NCBI GenBank assembly: GCA_020850225.1
Contig: JADZFD010000026.1
Location: forward strand, 1 to 64,000
DNA: 64,000 nt
Direction of reading: 5' to 3'
Source: Saprospiraceae bacterium
Lineage (GTDB): Bacteria; Bacteroidota; Bacteroidia; Chitinophagales; Saprospiraceae
Positions 1,482-41,549 of this stretch are shown here, in pieces; position 1 is the first letter of the stretch, and each line of letters starts with the position of its first letter. Both the position numbers and the translations under genes were made by a program. The notes beneath the pieces are model-generated. The model made no database searches and was not told the DNA's origin. It saw only the letters and a list, made by a program, of their open reading frames with translations.

Positions 1482-1665
1482 GAAAAGTGAAAAGTGAATT
1501 TCCCATTACTAATTGCATATTGCCAATACGAATTGCAAATTACATATTGCGAATTGCAAATTTGCCCATTGCCCATTGCCCATTGCCCATTGCCCATTTC
1601 AAATTGCCCATTTCAAATTGCCCATTGCGAATTGCATATTGCCCATTGCATATTACGAATTGCCC
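1482..1665. repeat. Degenerate 7-bp tandem array (ATTGCCC / ATTGCGA / ATTGCAT / ATTGCAA / ATTACGA / ATTTCAA), ~24 ATT-anchored units plus GAAAAGT x2 lead-in
   Basis: Direct read: 1568-1595 is ATTGCCC x4; 1596-1665 = ATTTCAA ATTGCCC ATTTCAA ATTGCCC ATTGCGA ATTGCAT ATTGCCC ATTGCAT ATTACGA ATTGCCC in perfect 7-nt phase. Confidence 0.95.
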
Positions 1666-1736
1666 ACCATTCAAATAAAGTATAAAAACCATCAAAACTA
1701 TTTTATCTTTACAAATCTAATCAGATATCAATATCC

Positions 1737-31887: not shown

Positions 31888-32178
31888 CCTATTTTAGGAC
31901 AAGACAAAAGTGCTAAAATGTGCGATGGCTTTCAGTATGACACAAAACCGATGTTATAGCCAGTGGTTCTGTCTGTTAGTCCTTGCAAACCATTGTCAAT
32001 ACTACGTTTCTCTGTCTTTGTTGTGTCGGGTTGTGCGGTTGCGTATTTTTTATTTTTGAAGGAAGGATTTTTTTAATTCAATTTTTGTCAGCGGAGGAAA
32101 GGTGTAAGCTCTTTTGCAATTTTTGGTCTGTGCGTTGGCTTGTGCGAATTGCAAATGTGCTTACACCTGTGTGTTGGC

Positions 32179-32619
32179 TTACATATAAATCACTTTTATT
32201 TTAATTTCTTTGTCTTGAAATAGATCAAAACTTGCTTTTTTGAAATTTGGTCGGTTGGTTAAACCAATAGATGAATAATTAGAAAAGCCAATACCTTCTT
32301 TGGGTAAAATTAAACCTTTGTCAATCTTGCCGTTATTGTTTTCATCGTGTAAAATGTTTACCGCATATTTCCCTTTTGGTAGGTTTTTAAATATGATTTT
32401 ACTTTTACCATTTGTAATTTGGGCAGTTTCTATTTTGAAATAGTTTTTGTAGTTTTCATCAGGTATTGAGCCGTCTTTGTTATATAAAGCTACTTGTAAA
32501 ACGCCTTTTGAATTGCGTAAATTCTCAACTTCAATAGTCAAACTGTATTCTTCTGTTTTAGTCTGAGCGACTATGTTTAAAACGAATACAGACATCACAA
32601 CAAGCAATATCACTCTCAT
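32179..32619 (-). CDS. DUF2141 family protein
   Basis: LTIEVENLRNSKGVLQVALYNKDGSIPDENY...LPKGKYAVNILHDENNNGKIDKG. Confidence 0.82.
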   Translation of the reverse strand: MRVILLVVMSVFVLNIVAQTKTEEYSLTIEVENLRNSKGVLQVALYNKDGSIPDENYKNYFKIETAQITNGKSKIIFKNLPKGKYAVNILHDENNNGKIDKGLILPKEGIGFSNYSSIGLTNRPNFKKASFDLFQDKEIKIKVIYM

Positions 32620-32654
32620 ATCTTTAATCTTTAATTTTTAATTCTTAATTTCTC
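32620..32654. repeat. 7-bp array: ATCTTTA ATCTTTA ATTTTTA ATTCTTA ATTTCTC
   Basis: Direct read; contains the stop codon of the RND gene. Confidence 0.85.
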
Positions 32655-35600
32655 CTTCACTCTATCCACTCCGTAATACACCATTGGCACTAAGAATACA
32701 GTCAATACTAATGAAGAAAGTAAGCCTCCAATAATTACCCAAGCCAAACCGTTTTTCCATTCTGCTGATGTTCCTGTGGCTAATGCAATGGGTAACATTC
32801 CAATTGCCATTGATAAAGTTGTCATTAAAATTGGCCGCATTCTGCCTTTGCTTGCTTCGATAATGGCTTGACGATAAGGTTTTCCTTCTGCTTTTAATTG
32901 ATTGGTAAAATCAACAATCAAAATTGAGTTTTTGGTAACTAATCCCATTAACATAATCAAACCTAATAAAGCAAATAAACTTAAATGACTTAACGATAAG
33001 TTCAAGGCTAAAAAAGCTCCAATGGCTGCAACCGGAATAGCAAATAAAGCTACAAACGGATAGATATAGCTATCATATAAAGCAACCATAATGAGGTAAA
33101 TCAAAATGAATGAAATAATCAGCACAGAACCCAATGCACCAAAACTGTCGTTTTGCCTTTTAATGTCGCTTCCCCAAGTCATTTCAATACCATTTGGTAA
33201 AGGATTGTTTTTCACATAAGCCACCACTTCATCGGCAACTGTTCCTGATGGACGCCCCAAAGCATCGGCAGTTAAGGTAACGGCTGGCTGTCGGTCTTTT
33301 CGTTCTAATAAAGAGGGTGAATTGTCTTTTTCAATAGAAGCAAATTGCGATACTTCAATGGGAACTCCCATAGGGTTGACAATGTTCAAGTTATTAATGT
33401 CATCATAATTTTGCCGATTGAACTTATCTAACCAAATACGAACAGGATATTCTGTTCCATTTTCAGTTAGCGAAGCATCATCATTTCCAGAAAAAGCAGT
33501 ACGCAAATTCATTCCTACATAAGCGGTGTTTAATCCTAAGCGTTGCATTTTGTCTCTATCCGGAATTACTTTTAGCTCCGGACTTCCTGCCTCAACAGAT
33601 AAACGAACATTATCTGCTCCGGGTATTTTTTCAATAACCGTTTTTAAATTTTGTGCCGTTTGTATTACCAAGTTTAACTCTGAACCACTCAATGTAATTT
33701 CGATGGGTGCTGTTTTTGGAATTAAACCTAATCCACTAATGGAATAATTAATACCAGAGAATTTTGTTTGTAAATCCTCTCGCAAATCAGTCATAAATTT
33801 TTCAGTAGAAAGATTATTGATTTCCTTTTTTGGTTTTAATTGAATAGTAAACTCCGATTTATTTGCAGAGCCAACACCCAAACTTCCAATACCTGTACTT
33901 GGTCCGCCAACATTACTAAACAAAGTTGCTACTTCGGGTTGTTGCAATATGTAGGTTTCAATCTTTTCTGAAATCAAATTATTATGTTGAATGGAAGTAT
34001 TTTTATCAAATTCTAATCCTAAGCGGAATTTGCCTTGGTCGCCAGTTGCAATGAGTTCTTTACCGATAATTCCTTGTTTCATCATTACTGCTGTTCCAAT
34101 AAAAAGAAAAATCACAAAGCCTGTAAATAGAAGTTTATGTCTTAAAACCCAATCTAATTTACCGCCATACCAAGCAATGAATTTGTCTAATTGATGTTCA
34201 AACCAAAGTAAAAAACGGTTAAAGAAATTGGTAGGTTGAAGATTCTCTTTTTCTCCAATTCGTGAAGCTAACCAAGGTGTAAGTGTAAACCCGACTAACA
34301 AACTTGTCAATACCGTTACAATAATTACCACAGAAAACTGCTTCAACATATCTGCCACAAAAACCTGTAGAAATAAGATAGGAACAAAAACAACGACATC
34401 CACCAAAGTAATGGAAACCGCAGAATAGCCAATTTCCATACGTCCATCCATTGCTGCTTTTCGCTTGTCTTTCCCCATATCCAAATGGCGTTGGATATTT
34501 TCTAAAACCACAGTCGCATCGTCCACCAAAACACCAATTACTAAAGACATCGCCAAAAGTGTCATCAAGTTAAGCGTGTAACCCAACAACCACATAGTTC
34601 CAAAAGCAGTGATTAGCGAAGTAGGAATGGCAACAGCAACAATCAAAGAATTTCGATAGCTTCTTAAAAACAAAAGCATTACAATAGAAACTAAAATAAC
34701 AGCCAAAATTAAATCGACAACTACTGAATTAACGGCTGCAATAGTATTATCGGTACTGTCATCTGTCACTACAAATTTTACATTATTGGAAGCATTGTGC
34801 TTTTCAATAGTTTGAAATTGCTCTTTAATTAATTTAGAAACATCAACGGCATTACCATCGCTTTGTTTTTTGATCAAAAGTCCAATACCATTTTTCCCGT
34901 TGTATCTACTAATAGAACTTGTTTCTTTAATTCCGTCCACCACTTCTGCAATGTCTTTCACATAAACAGGACTACCGGGCATTGGCATTGCAACTTGCAC
35001 ATTTTGAATACTACTAAGGTCATTGAATTTCCCCACCAAACGTACTGAACTATTTTCTTGGTCGGTCTGAACTTTCCCGGCAGGTAAATCAATTCCCGAG
35101 CGGTTAATGGCTTCTACCACTTGATACAAAGAAATTTTATAGAGTTTCAATTTATCTTTGTCCACCTTTACCTGGATTTCTCGTTCTTCTCCACCAAGGA
35201 CTGTAATTTCTGCTACTCCTTTCAATTTCTGAATTTGAGGAAGATAATCATCCTTCATTTTTTGATAAAACTCAGTAGGGCTTAAATCGCTGGTTGCACT
35301 TACCGACATAATAGGCAAATCATTGGGCGAAACCTTACTCATTACAGGATTTTGAATATCTTTTGGCAAATCCTTTTTGATATTGTCAATGTAGCGTTGT
35401 GCATCCTGCATTGTTTTGTCCAAATCTGTTCCATATTTCAAATTGGCAATAATGATGGAAGCATTTGGTAAAGACTTCGTTACCAAATAATCTACACCCT
35501 CCAAGTTAGAAAGTGCATCTTCAATTTTTCGAGAAACAGAGGTTTCTACTTCATTGGGTTCTGCACCGGGATAAACTGTTTTTATTACAACTACTGGTTG

Positions 35601-35723
35601 GTTAAAATCGGGCATTAATTCATAGCTCAAATTTTTAAAACCAATGATTCCCAATAGAGTAAACACGCTGAAAAGCACGATAATCAGCGAAGGGCGTTTG
35701 ATTGATATTTCTGTAATATTCAT
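32631..35723 (-). CDS. RND efflux transporter permease (HAE1-like); ORF opens at a TTG at 35732, ATG at 35723 preferred
   Basis: MNITEISIKRPSLIIVLFSVFTLLGI; VYPGAEPNEVETSVSRKIEDAL; DDATVVLENIQRH; multi-TM. Confidence 0.95.
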   Translation of the reverse strand: MNITEISIKRPSLIIVLFSVFTLLGIIGFKNLSYELMPDFNQPVVVIKTVYPGAEPNEVETSVSRKIEDALSNLEGVDYLVTKSLPNASIIIANLKYGTDLDKTMQDAQRYIDNIKKDLPKDIQNPVMSKVSPNDLPIMSVSATSDLSPTEFYQKMKDDYLPQIQKLKGVAEITVLGGEEREIQVKVDKDKLKLYKISLYQVVEAINRSGIDLPAGKVQTDQENSSVRLVGKFNDLSSIQNVQVAMPMPGSPVYVKDIAEVVDGIKETSSISRYNGKNGIGLLIKKQSDGNAVDVSKLIKEQFQTIEKHNASNNVKFVVTDDSTDNTIAAVNSVVVDLILAVILVSIVMLLFLRSYRNSLIVAVAIPTSLITAFGTMWLLGYTLNLMTLLAMSLVIGVLVDDATVVLENIQRHLDMGKDKRKAAMDGRMEIGYSAVSITLVDVVVFVPILFLQVFVADMLKQFSVVIIVTVLTSLLVGFTLTPWLASRIGEKENLQPTNFFNRFLLWFEHQLDKFIAWYGGKLDWVLRHKLLFTGFVIFLFIGTAVMMKQGIIGKELIATGDQGKFRLGLEFDKNTSIQHNNLISEKIETYILQQPEVATLFSNVGGPSTGIGSLGVGSANKSEFTIQLKPKKEINNLSTEKFMTDLREDLQTKFSGINYSISGLGLIPKTAPIEITLSGSELNLVIQTAQNLKTVIEKIPGADNVRLSVEAGSPELKVIPDRDKMQRLGLNTAYVGMNLRTAFSGNDDASLTENGTEYPVRIWLDKFNRQNYDDINNLNIVNPMGVPIEVSQFASIEKDNSPSLLERKDRQPAVTLTADALGRPSGTVADEVVAYVKNNPLPNGIEMTWGSDIKRQNDSFGALGSVLIISFILIYLIMVALYDSYIYPFVALFAIPVAAIGAFLALNLSLSHLSLFALLGLIMLMGLVTKNSILIVDFTNQLKAEGKPYRQAIIEASKGRMRPILMTTLSMAIGMLPIALATGTSAEWKNGLAWVIIGGLLSSLVLTVFLVPMVYYGVDRVKEKLRIKN

Positions 35724-35731
35724 TTTGTTCA

Positions 35732-35759
35732 ATTACGAATTAATAATTACGAATTACGA
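35732..35759. repeat. 7-bp array: ATTACGA ATTAATA ATTACGA ATTACGA (inverted relative to 36111-36145)
   Basis: Direct read. Confidence 0.85.
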
Positions 35760-36103
35760 GATTTCAAAGTGATTTGAATTTTCGCTAATATTTTACATAT
35801 TTCCTCTGCGTCATTGTGAAGAGAGTCGAATTCCTTTTTAGAAATATATTGAGTAGCATTTAGCAATTTCAACCAATAAATTGTTTCCCTTGCTTCTTTG
35901 TAAGAGATGGTTAACTTATGTAAGAAATCCTTTTCAGAAGCTCCTCCGATAGATTCTTCAATGTTTGCTCCTATGCTCGTACCTGAACGTAAAATCTGTT
36001 TGGATAAGACAAATTCTTTCTTTTCAGATTGCAAGTATTTATACAATTCAACAATACGAATTGCAAAAGCGAAACTCTTTTGTTGTACAATATTCTCTTT
36101 CAT
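35747..36103 (-). CDS. Four-helix-bundle protein, S23/23S rRNA intervening-sequence (IVS) family
   Basis: FAIRIVELYKYLQSEKKEFVLSKQILRSGTSIGANIEESIGGASEKDFLHKLTISYKEARETIYWLKLL. Confidence 0.88.
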   Translation of the reverse strand: MKENIVQQKSFAFAIRIVELYKYLQSEKKEFVLSKQILRSGTSIGANIEESIGGASEKDFLHKLTISYKEARETIYWLKLLNATQYISKKEFDSLHNDAEEICKILAKIQITLKSRNS

Positions 36104-36110
36104 ATTCTTG

Positions 36111-36145
36111 ATTTTTAATTCGTAATTGTTAATTTTTAATTATCA
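36111..36145. repeat. 7-bp array: ATTTTTA ATTCGTA ATTGTTA ATTTTTA ATTATCA
   Basis: Direct read; contains the stop and last codons of the adaptor gene. Confidence 0.85.
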
Positions 36146-37181
36146 CATTTGCTCCATCAAATAGATTGATAAATCCGTTTGTAACAATTATATCTCCCTC
36201 TTTTAATCCGTTTATAACTACAGTTTTATTACTTGTATTCTTAGAAGTTGTAATGGTTTGTAAAATAGCCTTTCCATTTTTTACTATATAAACTTTTGCT
36301 ATTCCATTTTCTTCAATAATGGAAGATGACGGAATGAATATGCCTTGTTCTTGCGAAGTAGAAGAAAGCTTTACTTTCCCAAACATTCCCGATTTTATAG
36401 ATAATTGTTTGGTGTTTTCAACTTGGAATTGAACCGGAAAACTATTGCCCATATTCGCTTTACTTCCTGTCATTATTATTTTTCCGGGAAGTGGAATTTC
36501 AGGATAAACATCTGAATTGATGTTATAAATTTTGTTGGCTTGAAACTGTACCAAATCTTTTTCAGGAACATTTACCGTAAAACGTAACGAATTGATGTCT
36601 GTGATTTGCAGTAACGGAATTCCCGGTGCAGCAAAACCGCCTTCTTCGTTGAGTTTAGCCGTCACAACGCCGTTGAAAGGTGCTTTAATACTTGTTTTGC
36701 TAATTTGCTCCAACAAAGTTGCTCGTTGAACTTTAGCCGATTTAAGACCTAATTTTGCTTTCTCTAATTGAACGCCTTGAATGGCATCGGCTTCCGTTAA
36801 AATTGTATATCGTTTTACATCATCTTCCAATCCTTCAATTTGTACTTCTATTGTTTGCAATTGTAACTTTAACAACGAATTATCCAACTGTATAAGCGTT
36901 TGACCTTTGGAAACAGTACTTCCAACATCTACCAAAACGGCATTGATTTTTCCTTGAATATCCGCACTGATTTTTGTTTCCTTATTTGGTTCAAAAGTCC
37001 CTGTATAGTTGTTTGCATCAACAATGTTTTGTAGTCGAATGGTATCAACACTTACGGTAATCGGTTTTTCTTTATCGTATTGATATACTCTATTTTCAGT
37101 TGTTTTTTTGTTGCTTAAAAGTTTGAACATCATCAAACCAACCACCGCAACACCTGCTATTATCCAAATTATCTTTTTCAT
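36129..37181 (-). CDS. RND efflux periplasmic adaptor (MFP/HlyD family)
   Basis: KISADIQGKINAVLVDVGSTVSKGQTLIQLDNS; IKAPFNGVVTAKLNEEGGFAAPG. Confidence 0.92.
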   Translation of the reverse strand: MKKIIWIIAGVAVVGLMMFKLLSNKKTTENRVYQYDKEKPITVSVDTIRLQNIVDANNYTGTFEPNKETKISADIQGKINAVLVDVGSTVSKGQTLIQLDNSLLKLQLQTIEVQIEGLEDDVKRYTILTEADAIQGVQLEKAKLGLKSAKVQRATLLEQISKTSIKAPFNGVVTAKLNEEGGFAAPGIPLLQITDINSLRFTVNVPEKDLVQFQANKIYNINSDVYPEIPLPGKIIMTGSKANMGNSFPVQFQVENTKQLSIKSGMFGKVKLSSTSQEQGIFIPSSSIIEENGIAKVYIVKNGKAILQTITTSKNTSNKTVVINGLKEGDIIVTNGFINLFDGANVIIKN

Positions 37182-37191
37182 TATCTCCTTG

Positions 37192-37247
37192 ATTTTTAAT
37201 TCTTAATTTTTAATTCTTAATTTTTAATTCTTAATTGTCAATTGACC
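37192..37247. repeat. 7-bp array: (ATTTTTA ATTCTTA)x3 ATTGTCA ATTGACC
   Basis: Direct read; perfect 14-mer alternation, runs into the last codons of the TolC gene. Confidence 0.9.
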
Positions 37248-38555
37248 CGTTACTTTTTTTAGTTCTAAATCAGCTTTCAAATAATCTATTACTGCTGATA
37301 AATAATTTTGCTGTGCTTCACGCAGTGCGTTGTCTGCCAATAAAACATCGGTTAGGCTTGCTGTTCCTTGTTTCTGTTGAATAATAGTTTGATCATAAAT
37401 GGTTTGTGCTAAAGCGATTTGCTTTTCGGTGTTCAATACCGTTTGTTGGGCTACATTTTTCTGCCTTGTGCTATTTTCAATTTCCATTTTATTTTTATCG
37501 TTCATTAATTGAACTTGTAATTCATTATTGGTTATTTCCAACCTCTTCTGGTTGATTTTTCGTAGTGTAACCGTTCCATTAAAAAGAGGATAAGAAAGCT
37601 GTATTCCTGCAAAACTGATAGGGTAGAATTTCAAGAAATCATTAGGTGTTTTATCATAACCGAAACCTGTTGTTCCGTAGGAAGCAATCAAGTTTAAAGA
37701 AGGCAAAAAGCGAGATTTGTTCAGCGTACTTAATTCAGCATTTAAAAATCTATTTTGCGCTTGAATGAGTTGAATATCCAAGGTTGTTTTTGAAGTGTAA
37801 TCCAATGTTGTTTGAAAAGAAATTGCACTTTCGATGTTAATTTGGTTTTCTAAAGCAACGCCCATATTTAGCTTTAGTGCATTCAGAATAGAAATGTATT
37901 TGTTATTCACATTTTCTTTTTGAGTAGCTAATTGTTCCGCTTGTAATTGCACTTTATTTACATCTGTTCCCTTTGCCAAAAGTTGTTCTTTTAGCAATTG
38001 CATATTTTTTAATAGTTTGTTTGTGTTCTCTAAATTAGTTTCTAAAAACTCCAATTGGTGTTTTAAGATTTGAGCATTGTAATAAAGTGTTGTAATATCA
38101 TACAAAACCTGTTCTTCCGATTTTTGATATTGAAGTTGGGTGAGTTCATTTGCAATTTTTGTATTTTGAATTGCTCCGTAAACCTGTGGATTGTAGAGTG
38201 GCATTGCCAATTGAATATTCGCGTTGATATTATGAGGAACACCAAATTGCAAATCTCTAAACTGTCCTTCGGGCGCTTGCGGATTAAGTGCATTCATCGG
38301 CATTAGTTGTGTGGGCAACTCCATAAAATATTTGTAGTCGGCGTTTGCCGTAATTTTTGGAATAAGGTTAGCTTGTGCTTCTTTTTTCCGCTGCTCACTA
38401 ATGGCAATGTTGTTGCGATTGATTTGCAATGTTTTGTTATGCACTCTTGCTGTGTCAATACATTGTTTTAGTGTCCAAACTTCTTGGGCTTGAACCGCAT
38501 TCCATCCGATAAGCACTATCGAAAAGAAAAAAAGTTTGCGAGTATTCACTAACAT
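37224..38555 (-). CDS. TolC-family outer-membrane efflux protein
   Basis: VWTLKQCIDTARVHNKTLQINRNNIAISEQRKKEAQANLIPKI; coiled-coil repeats. Confidence 0.92.
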   Translation of the reverse strand: MLVNTRKLFFFSIVLIGWNAVQAQEVWTLKQCIDTARVHNKTLQINRNNIAISEQRKKEAQANLIPKITANADYKYFMELPTQLMPMNALNPQAPEGQFRDLQFGVPHNINANIQLAMPLYNPQVYGAIQNTKIANELTQLQYQKSEEQVLYDITTLYYNAQILKHQLEFLETNLENTNKLLKNMQLLKEQLLAKGTDVNKVQLQAEQLATQKENVNNKYISILNALKLNMGVALENQINIESAISFQTTLDYTSKTTLDIQLIQAQNRFLNAELSTLNKSRFLPSLNLIASYGTTGFGYDKTPNDFLKFYPISFAGIQLSYPLFNGTVTLRKINQKRLEITNNELQVQLMNDKNKMEIENSTRQKNVAQQTVLNTEKQIALAQTIYDQTIIQQKQGTASLTDVLLADNALREAQQNYLSAVIDYLKADLELKKVTGQLTIKN

Positions 38556-38589
38556 ATTAGGGTAAATTTTTTTAGTTTGTTATCCGTAT

Positions 38590-38919
38590 TTAATTTTCTT
38601 GTTTTATCATTGTCAGCAACATTTTAAAGCGTTCAATTCCATTTAAAGAATGAGGAATATTTGCTGGCATAATGATGCAATCACCCTTTTTAAAGTTGTG
38701 AGTTTTACTGTTAATCGTTATTTCTGCTTCACCATCTAAAATTTGAACAATCGCATCATAAGAAGTTTTATGCTCCGAAAGCCCCTGTTCTTTGTCAAAC
38801 GAAAATAAAGTTAGGTTTCCACCTTTGCTTTTAGTTATCTGTTTGCTAATAACTCCACCGCTTGTATATTCAATTGAATTCTCAAGGTTGAATATATTTT
38901 CTTTTTCAAAAGTTGCCAT
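38590..38919 (-). CDS. Cupin-domain protein
   Basis: GLSEHKTSYDAIVQILDGEAEITINSKTHNFKKGDCIIMPANIPHSL. Confidence 0.85.
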   Translation of the reverse strand: MATFEKENIFNLENSIEYTSGGVISKQITKSKGGNLTLFSFDKEQGLSEHKTSYDAIVQILDGEAEITINSKTHNFKKGDCIIMPANIPHSLNGIERFKMLLTMIKQEN

Positions 38920-38934
38920 ACTATATATATTTAC

Positions 38935-38984
38935 GTTAGTTAGTATTCACTCACAAAAGTAAAGTAAGTTTTTCAATTGGCAAA
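38935..38984 (-). promoter_or_regulatory. Promoter TTTG-N19-TACTTTTG plus operator GAGTGAATACTAACTAAC, upstream of cupin/efflux operon
   Basis: Near-identical to 42144-42193 upstream of tetR; fits Bacteroidota -33 TTG / -7 TAnnTTTG. Confidence 0.75.
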
Positions 38985-39180
38985 TTTTTTTTGAAAAAAA
39001 TCACAATCTTTTTTTTCTCCTCATCTATTTATAGCCTTCAAACCATAAAACTGTAATAAAAGCAATCAAAACGGCTATTCCTAAATCCCTCTCTTTCTCG
39101 ACAAATTTCAAAAAAACACGAAACTTCTTTTTTTAGTTTAATTCTTTATCGTAATATTGTAATATACAAATAAAGAAATA

Positions 39181-41514: not shown

Positions 41515-41549
41515 ATTTTTAATTTTTAATTCGTAATTTTTAATTTTTC
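41515..41549. repeat. 7-bp array: ATTTTTA ATTTTTA ATTCGTA ATTTTTA ATTTTTC
   Basis: Direct read; contains stop of tetR. Confidence 0.85.

Follow-up and report, generated by a model that had tools for sequence, protein, structure and literature searches.

The gene of the S23/IVS family lying between the adaptor and pump genes of an RND operon in a 64,000-nucleotide stretch of Saprospiraceae DNA (the whole stretch analysed, hereafter the window) is best read as the only gene of a minimal mobile element of ~0.4 kb, in which inverted arrays of a 7-bp repeat (the arms) act as terminal inverted repeats. We consider this reading likely, with a probability of roughly 0.7; the binding of the heptads by the S23 protein and the existence of an enzyme acting in trans are inferred parts of it. 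Our comparisons show that S23 units are distributed over many bacterial phyla, that their two arms match each other within a locus, and that sites conserved in other respects may hold or lack the unit. The genome from which the window originates amounts to 3.25 Mb in 113 contigs, and the features of the window on which the argument relies are as follows:

36129-37181, minus strand: RND adaptor (HlyD/CusB type), host gene upstream of the element, identified by profile match
36111-36141, minus strand: 5' arm, upstream of the S23 gene, heptad array AATTAAAAATTAACAATTACGAATTAAAAAT, which also encodes the last codons and the stop of the adaptor
35747-36103, minus strand: S23/IVS four-helix-bundle gene (PF05635), 118 aa, the only gene of the element
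35731-35759, minus strand: 3' arm, heptad array TCGTAATTCGTAATTATTAATTCGTAATT, which also encodes the last codons and the stop of S23
35724-36144, minus strand: entire inserted element, ~420 bp, delimited by comparison with the empty sites of G007 and G052, ends approximate
32631-35723, minus strand: RND pump (AcrB type), host gene downstream of the element; its open reading frame reaches 35732, with a natural ATG at 35723 (MNITEISI)
37188-37243: satellite heptad array without S23, in the gap between the TolC-type and adaptor genes (TRF)
32623-32651: satellite heptad array without S23, past the pump gene (TRF)
41515-41548: satellite heptad array lacking S23, at a distance of 5.4 kb from the S23 gene (TRF)

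The operon is encoded on the minus strand in the order TolC, adaptor, pump, with the S23 gene between the last two. The S23 product matches the PF05635 profile with 110 bits (cut-off 33.8) over positions 1-105 of 106, so that family membership is met, and it is related in sequence to the solved structure 2RLD (an entry with five chains). The S23 protein of locus L003 is 75% identical to that of the window. No other profile matches this product, which is devoid of an HUH/Y1 tyrosine transposase, and S23 is the sole gene between the arms, where no transposase is encoded. Over 26 nt (35731-35756 vs. 36116-36141), the arms are complementary at 23 positions (88%), and a period of 7 bp was detected by TRF in the arrays on both sides of the gene. 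When both 160-bp flanks were submitted to dinucleotide-preserving shuffles, the match had a p-value of ~0.003, and it was equalled by none of 3000 shuffles (0/3000) once the array-encoded last codons of S23 were counted in. An earlier note, made from the sequence alone, had described an IVS-family gene between adaptor and pump, bordered by inverted arrays and without any enzyme in the cassette; all of this held. The unit is not located inside an rRNA gene, since RND genes stand on both sides, and no Rfam match was found in the region 32000-39000 of the window. The genome as a whole has five matches to PF05635, of which four lie above the cut-off; a remote relative of 196 aa that falls below it (L005, G000:C93:26166) ends without arrays.

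Heptad arrays devoid of S23 are also found in nearby operon gaps, and the window alone therefore cannot prove a link between S23 and the arrays; that link is established only by the comparison of hundreds of other S23 genes. Much farther away in the window (1503-1666, i.e., 34 kb from the S23 gene), there is an AATTGCC-type array of up to ~22 units, with no S23 gene seen alongside.

In seven relatives, the adaptor and the pump are present and the S23 gene is absent. In two of them, a genus-mate (G007, adaptor 73% identical) and a more divergent genome (G052, 65%), 12 bases separate the adaptor stop from the pump ATG, and these empty sites contain neither S23 nor arrays, while the S23 gene is likewise missing from the RND operon of five further, more distant relatives. 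Gene and arrays were therefore gained or lost together. The satellite array of 37188-37243 is also missing from the equivalent gap of G007. No target duplication can be read for the window copy, as protein identity with the empty-site relatives is only 65-73%. The earlier note had held that conservation of the gene at this operon position over long evolutionary distances would refute mobility; a conserved S23 site in this RND operon was considered and rejected, given the seven empty relatives. It had also proposed to define the insertion ends from orthologous operons, by which the ends of the window copy stay approximate, exact insertions being provided instead by cyanobacterial plasmids (see below). 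The estimated size of the window element (~420 bp) is nonetheless in line with the 414-428 bp of exactly bounded copies.

To generalize beyond this locus, the 160-bp upstream flank of each S23 gene was compared with the reverse complement of its downstream flank, using a score of at least 14 as threshold. In the genus and family of the window, inverted flanks were found for 61% of 108 S23 genes vs. 1.3% of 150 other genes from the same loci (p = 4e-24), and mispaired S23 flanks of the same set reached the threshold in 0.7% of cases. A multi-phylum set was then drawn from a scan of GTDB genomes, of which the best 80 loci (among them loci of Proteobacteria, Acidobacteria, Planctomycetes, Clostridia, Cyanobacteria, Fibrobacteres, Spirochaetes, candidate phyla and Bacteroidota) yielded 76 usable S23 genes and 99 controls. 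Here, the flanks were inverted for 64% of the S23 genes vs. 1% of the controls, and direct repeats were observed for 7%. The earlier note had named S23 homologs mostly lacking such flanks as a refutation; the opposite was found (59–64% flanked vs. ~1% of other genes). Over all 208 usable S23 genes, 59% have inverted flanks, and one or more of three signals can be seen in 77%; the ~40% below the inverted threshold include genes with direct arms (17% of all) and genes with none of the three signals (23%). In L257, L259 and L261, the polarity of the upstream arm is flipped with respect to sister elements, which makes the arms direct rather than inverted.

Among ~249 control genes, three reached the inverted-flank score, one of them RAYT-like with REP-type flanks and the two others flanked by S23-type arrays. 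The RAYT-like hit amounts to a natural positive control for the assay; this RAYT-like transposase gene (L081:8210-8663, minus strand), whose REP-type flanks are inverted, is the lone hit that is neither S23 nor heptad-based.

The period of the arrays is apparent in the multi-phylum set, where the mean score is 20.6 at lag 7, 17.9 at lag 14 and 15.2 at lag 21, vs. 4–6 at other lags. A strict tandem test restricted to lag 7 is weak in the family of the window (25% of S23 genes vs. 7% at the chosen cut), because the arrays are short and degenerate there, and the inverted-arm test is far sharper. The arms have a polarity, the upstream one being G-rich on the coding strand in 79/85 cases, and their consensus is AGT followed by four variable bases (AGT-N4). 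Mismatches between arms are G-U-compatible in 94 cases vs. 93 mirror cases; without any G-U bias, RNA pairing alone therefore does not explain the identity of the arms. Between co-directional genes, the S23 gene is in sense orientation in 75 cases and in antisense orientation in 10, a bias that could arise because antisense copies are selected against, because the gene is expressed from host promoters, or simply from normal operon order. In one Bacteroidota group, a motif made of TGTAAGG, ~16 bases and GGTT/GGTC occurs 27-41 bases before the S23 ATG (11/28 genes, one being doubtful, vs. 1/208 other S23 genes; named loci, all upstream of S23: L248, L249, L253-L255, L257, L259-L261, L265). As it resembles an ECF-type promoter, those units might carry a promoter of their own.

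The sequence of the arrays varies by locus, yet it follows the S23 clade and not the genome. The proportion of S23 pairs with similar arms rises from 0.4% below 35% protein identity to 41% at 60–70% and 67% at 70–80%, and above 80% the arms are similar in 3/3 pairs, while arms compared at opposite polarity practically never match. Restricting the comparison to non-homologous insertion sites, arm similarity still climbs from 0.3% to 29% with S23 relatedness, which indicates that the unit travels as one piece. For example, a clade distributed over four genera (L034, L040, L041, L047), with proteins 64–72% identical, shares AGGGGTC-type heptads in the absence of detectable flank homology. Conversely, unrelated S23 genes within one genome share arms in 1/34 pairs, vs. 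28% for related S23 genes in different genomes.

Direct evidence for insertion comes from S23 genes on cyanobacterial plasmids, for which filled and empty sites were compared one by one (sites A to G). At site A, in a conjugation operon, the unit is present in Trichormus variabilis and Scytonema, in flanks 97–98% identical to the empty sites of Fremyella, Nostoc linckia and Nostoc carneum (sequences compared), further plasmids with an empty site being found in the search. The empty site reads AAAAAGTAATTAACAAATA and the filled site AAAAAGTAAT, 423 bp, GTAATTAACAAATA, i.e., a 5-bp target duplication (GTAAT) for an insert of 428 bp in total; the Scytonema copy, shorter by two repeat units, is 414 bp long. 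The same site houses a decayed S23 remnant in Nostoc C052 and, in Brasilonema (pBOCT2, L291), a ~70-bp hairpin that is built from the same heptads and lacks S23, which might be a MITE-like derivative of the S23 unit. Presence/absence comparisons were obtained for six other plasmid sites. The junctions fit a TTCTA duplication at site D (Nostoc) and a TTAGT/TTAGC duplication at site G (ribonucleotide reductase genes), both being read from the junctions with a lower flank identity, whereas site F has no target duplication and a small loss of target. At sites B (cmr2-S23-cmr3), C (cas6-S23-cas4) and E (integrase), presence/absence was seen and the exact ends are unresolved; for site C (Anabaena 90), an empty relative was found, the boundary being blurred by long additional arrays. 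In all, one site gives a clear target duplication, and two others support one. For the sufA-S23-sufB arrangement of Riemerella, no empty relative was found within the plasmid set.

Two of these plasmids, from Picosynechococcus PCC 7003 (L294) and Anabaena sp. 90 (L295), have S23 units within CRISPR operons (cmr2-S23-cmr3 and cas6-S23-cas4, respectively). The 23S rRNA IVP has been listed as newly associated with CRISPR adaptation modules (PMC10910872), an association that insertion might explain without any CRISPR function.

Arrays without a gene are concentrated around S23 genes. In the genome of the window, arrays of at least four AATT heptads occur in few places, nine of which are not S23 arms, and 5/9 of these extra arrays are found no more than 6 kb away from one of three S23 genes, in stretches representing ~1% of the genome. 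Likewise, the surroundings of 74 loci contain copies of their own arms at 0.048 per kb vs. 0.002 for foreign arms, the density being highest at less than 1 kb. Not all copies are recent: 18 S23 genes share a common position in a fadJ/fadA-type thiolase operon across Bacteroidota families. Position conservation over long distances does therefore occur outside the RND operon, and residence can be long. On the S23 tree, this position requires four changes vs. 9.6 with shuffled labels, and these copies are likely long residents, even if repeated insertion is not excluded. The heptads differ between thiolase-operon loci, yet in most of these loci the two arms have remained matched to each other, and some process renews or maintains the match over long times; in two close species (L133 vs. 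L134), the arms vary separately by point changes, so that any arm copying must be rare. Irregular units that are identical, as seen in L042, would be expected from such copying.

In the mechanism that we propose, the S23 protein, which is small, helical and slightly basic, and whose solved relatives (2GSC and 2RLD) both comprise five chains, would bind as a pentamer the heptads of its own element. This is inferred, without binding data, and it is proposed as the cause of the coupling between protein and arrays. Inverted ends and a 5-bp duplication suggest that DNA is cut and joined by an enzyme acting in trans; this enzyme, inferred to be encoded elsewhere, would act with a 5-bp stagger, and the lone arrays nearby would be by-products of the same activity. 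The element, mostly in sense between co-directional genes, would be read as part of the host operon, and the same kind of unit in ribosomal RNA would be the classical IVS, removed from the transcript by RNase III. Several points speak against this reading: the enzyme is absent from the element and none has been identified elsewhere, ~40% of S23 genes stay below the inverted threshold, a target duplication is clear at a single plasmid site only, the thiolase-operon copies are likely long residents, and the sense bias (75 to 10) is equally expected of an ordinary operon gene. The candidate mobile cassette mobilised in trans, as put forward by the earlier note, is thus supported, its enzyme remaining inferred. 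A bolder reading, which we would be as ready to doubt as to defend, is that S23 units form a mobile-element class of their own, present in many phyla and among the smallest with a conserved non-catalytic protein. The pentamer would recognise fast-evolving heptads at both ends and recruit a cellular enzyme, array and protein would co-evolve, the arms changing together and satellites being seeded, and rRNA IVSs as well as STRR heptamers would be included.

The least unlikely of the alternatives is that S23 is merely a passenger, the arrays being recognised by an unknown transposase or recombinase and the coupling reflecting the common descent of the unit. Some observations favour it: a helical bundle of 118 aa has no catalytic motif, S23-less arrays are common, and, in the Brasilonema plasmid, the very site of an S23 unit is occupied by an S23-less hairpin of the same heptads. 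However, the cargo belongs to the same protein family in every phylum sampled (a weak argument, as sampling began from S23), the scoring controls, apart from the RAYT-like gene, have S23-type arrays, and cargo swaps would be expected more often. A unit acting at the RNA level, the arms of which would pair in the transcript and enclose the S23 message, with RNase III excising it from the host mRNA and selection on pairing keeping the arms alike, appears unlikely. The transcript of the window element is predicted to fold with a terminal stem (z = -3.0), the IVS of Coxiella has a 28-bp stem cut by RNase III (PMC4990558), and the sense bias would also fit. Against this, the lack of a G-U preference is as expected if identity is kept in DNA, and the arms are direct in ~17% of S23 genes, in some through a flipped upstream arm. 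This evidence does not exclude that RNA processing may additionally occur.

Retro-mobility, in which a reverse transcriptase would copy the sense transcript in trans, with S23 acting like the Avd protein of diversity-generating retroelements, is very unlikely. In its favour are the sense bias, the kinship of S23 and Avd, for which we have the statement of the earlier note only, and the presence of one RVT_1 gene in the genome of the window. Yet this sole match (L235, G000:C65:27645-28271) is on another contig and not near any S23 gene, no link having been shown, and it is all the evidence bearing on the retroelement connection that the earlier note had drawn; moreover, a clean 5-bp duplication and inverted ends look like DNA cut-and-join. 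Finally, coincidence, i.e., an ordinary small gene caught by chance between two arrays in genomes rich in intergenic heptads, could be invoked since neighbouring gaps hold arrays without S23. It is all but excluded: the controls already contradict it, such flanks being found in only 1–1.3% of the non-S23 genes of these loci, the extra arrays are concentrated around S23 genes, and empty sites lack the gene and the arrays alike. Having weighed these alternatives, we retain the minimal mobile element as the preferred reading.

IVSs were recognised in rRNA genes decades ago, with open questions as to where they come from, how they move and what their protein is for (PMC4990558). Finding the same unit in numerous operons of different phyla, along with exact insertions and the correspondence between protein and repeats, makes these questions testable. 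It is suggested that the rRNA “intervening sequences” are one special case of a much larger, overlooked family of insertion elements, which would connect rRNA fragmentation and the S23 “ribosomal” proteins with the heptads repeated in Cyanobacteria and Bacteroidota. Insertion also offers a simple reason for the location of S23 genes beside unrelated genes, and a small “four helix bundle protein” gene in an operon should be annotated as an insertion before any role there is assigned to it.

In the literature searched, no link of non-rRNA S23 genes to heptad arrays was found; subscription journals and preprints were mostly uncovered, so that a prior description is not excluded. Intergenic 7-bp tandem arrays, patchy across species, have been reported as the STRR heptamers of Cyanobacteria (PMC2670836) and the TAACTGA heptamers of Beggiatoaceae (PMC4679880), and they are not tied to S23 genes in the passages of these papers bearing on them. 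The reverse complement of TAACTGA, TCAGTTA, resembles some S23 arms, and it has been proposed that a repeat-binding protein might itself be a mobile element in Beggiatoaceae (PMC4679880). By analogy, both heptamers might be parts of the S23-array phenomenon.

Avd is a small pentameric four-helix bundle; unlike diversity-generating retroelements, the window unit has no linked reverse transcriptase, template repeat or variable repeat. With MITEs and small insertion sequences, S23 units share terminal inverted repeats, a size of 0.1-0.5 kb, target duplication and an S23-less derivative (L291), but they differ by a conserved non-transposase gene and by array ends that vary by locus. Presence/absence combined with target duplication, the criterion for an insertion element, is met for the plasmid relatives, whereas the window copy can be compared with diverged empty sites only. 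As in RAYT/REP systems, a gene lies inside inverted short repeats that track the protein clade and also occur singly at other places in the genome; in contrast to them, there is no HUH/Y1 transposase, the repeats are heptad arrays rather than REP hairpins, and the extra copies are mainly nearby, so that the S23 unit works like these systems without being a member of them.

The closest known system is the IVS of the 23S rRNA of Coxiella burnetii, which is 428 nt long and cut by RNase III, and which has an S23 ORF, inverted ends of ~28 bp and two to three GACAGAT heptamers upstream (PMC4990558). No 23S motif was found near the S23 loci covered by this check, and, in the absence of any S23 gene within 23S rRNA among these loci, the link to IVSs therefore rests on this published description. 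The window unit shares with rRNA IVSs the S23 ORF, inverted repeats able to form a stem and tandem heptamers, and the distribution of IVSs is scattered as well. It differs from them in lying between protein genes, in being multi-copy, in having arrays on both sides and in occupying different insertion sites, as shown by empty relatives. It is thus a relative of the rRNA IVS rather than an rRNA IVS, with the same anatomy in a different location.
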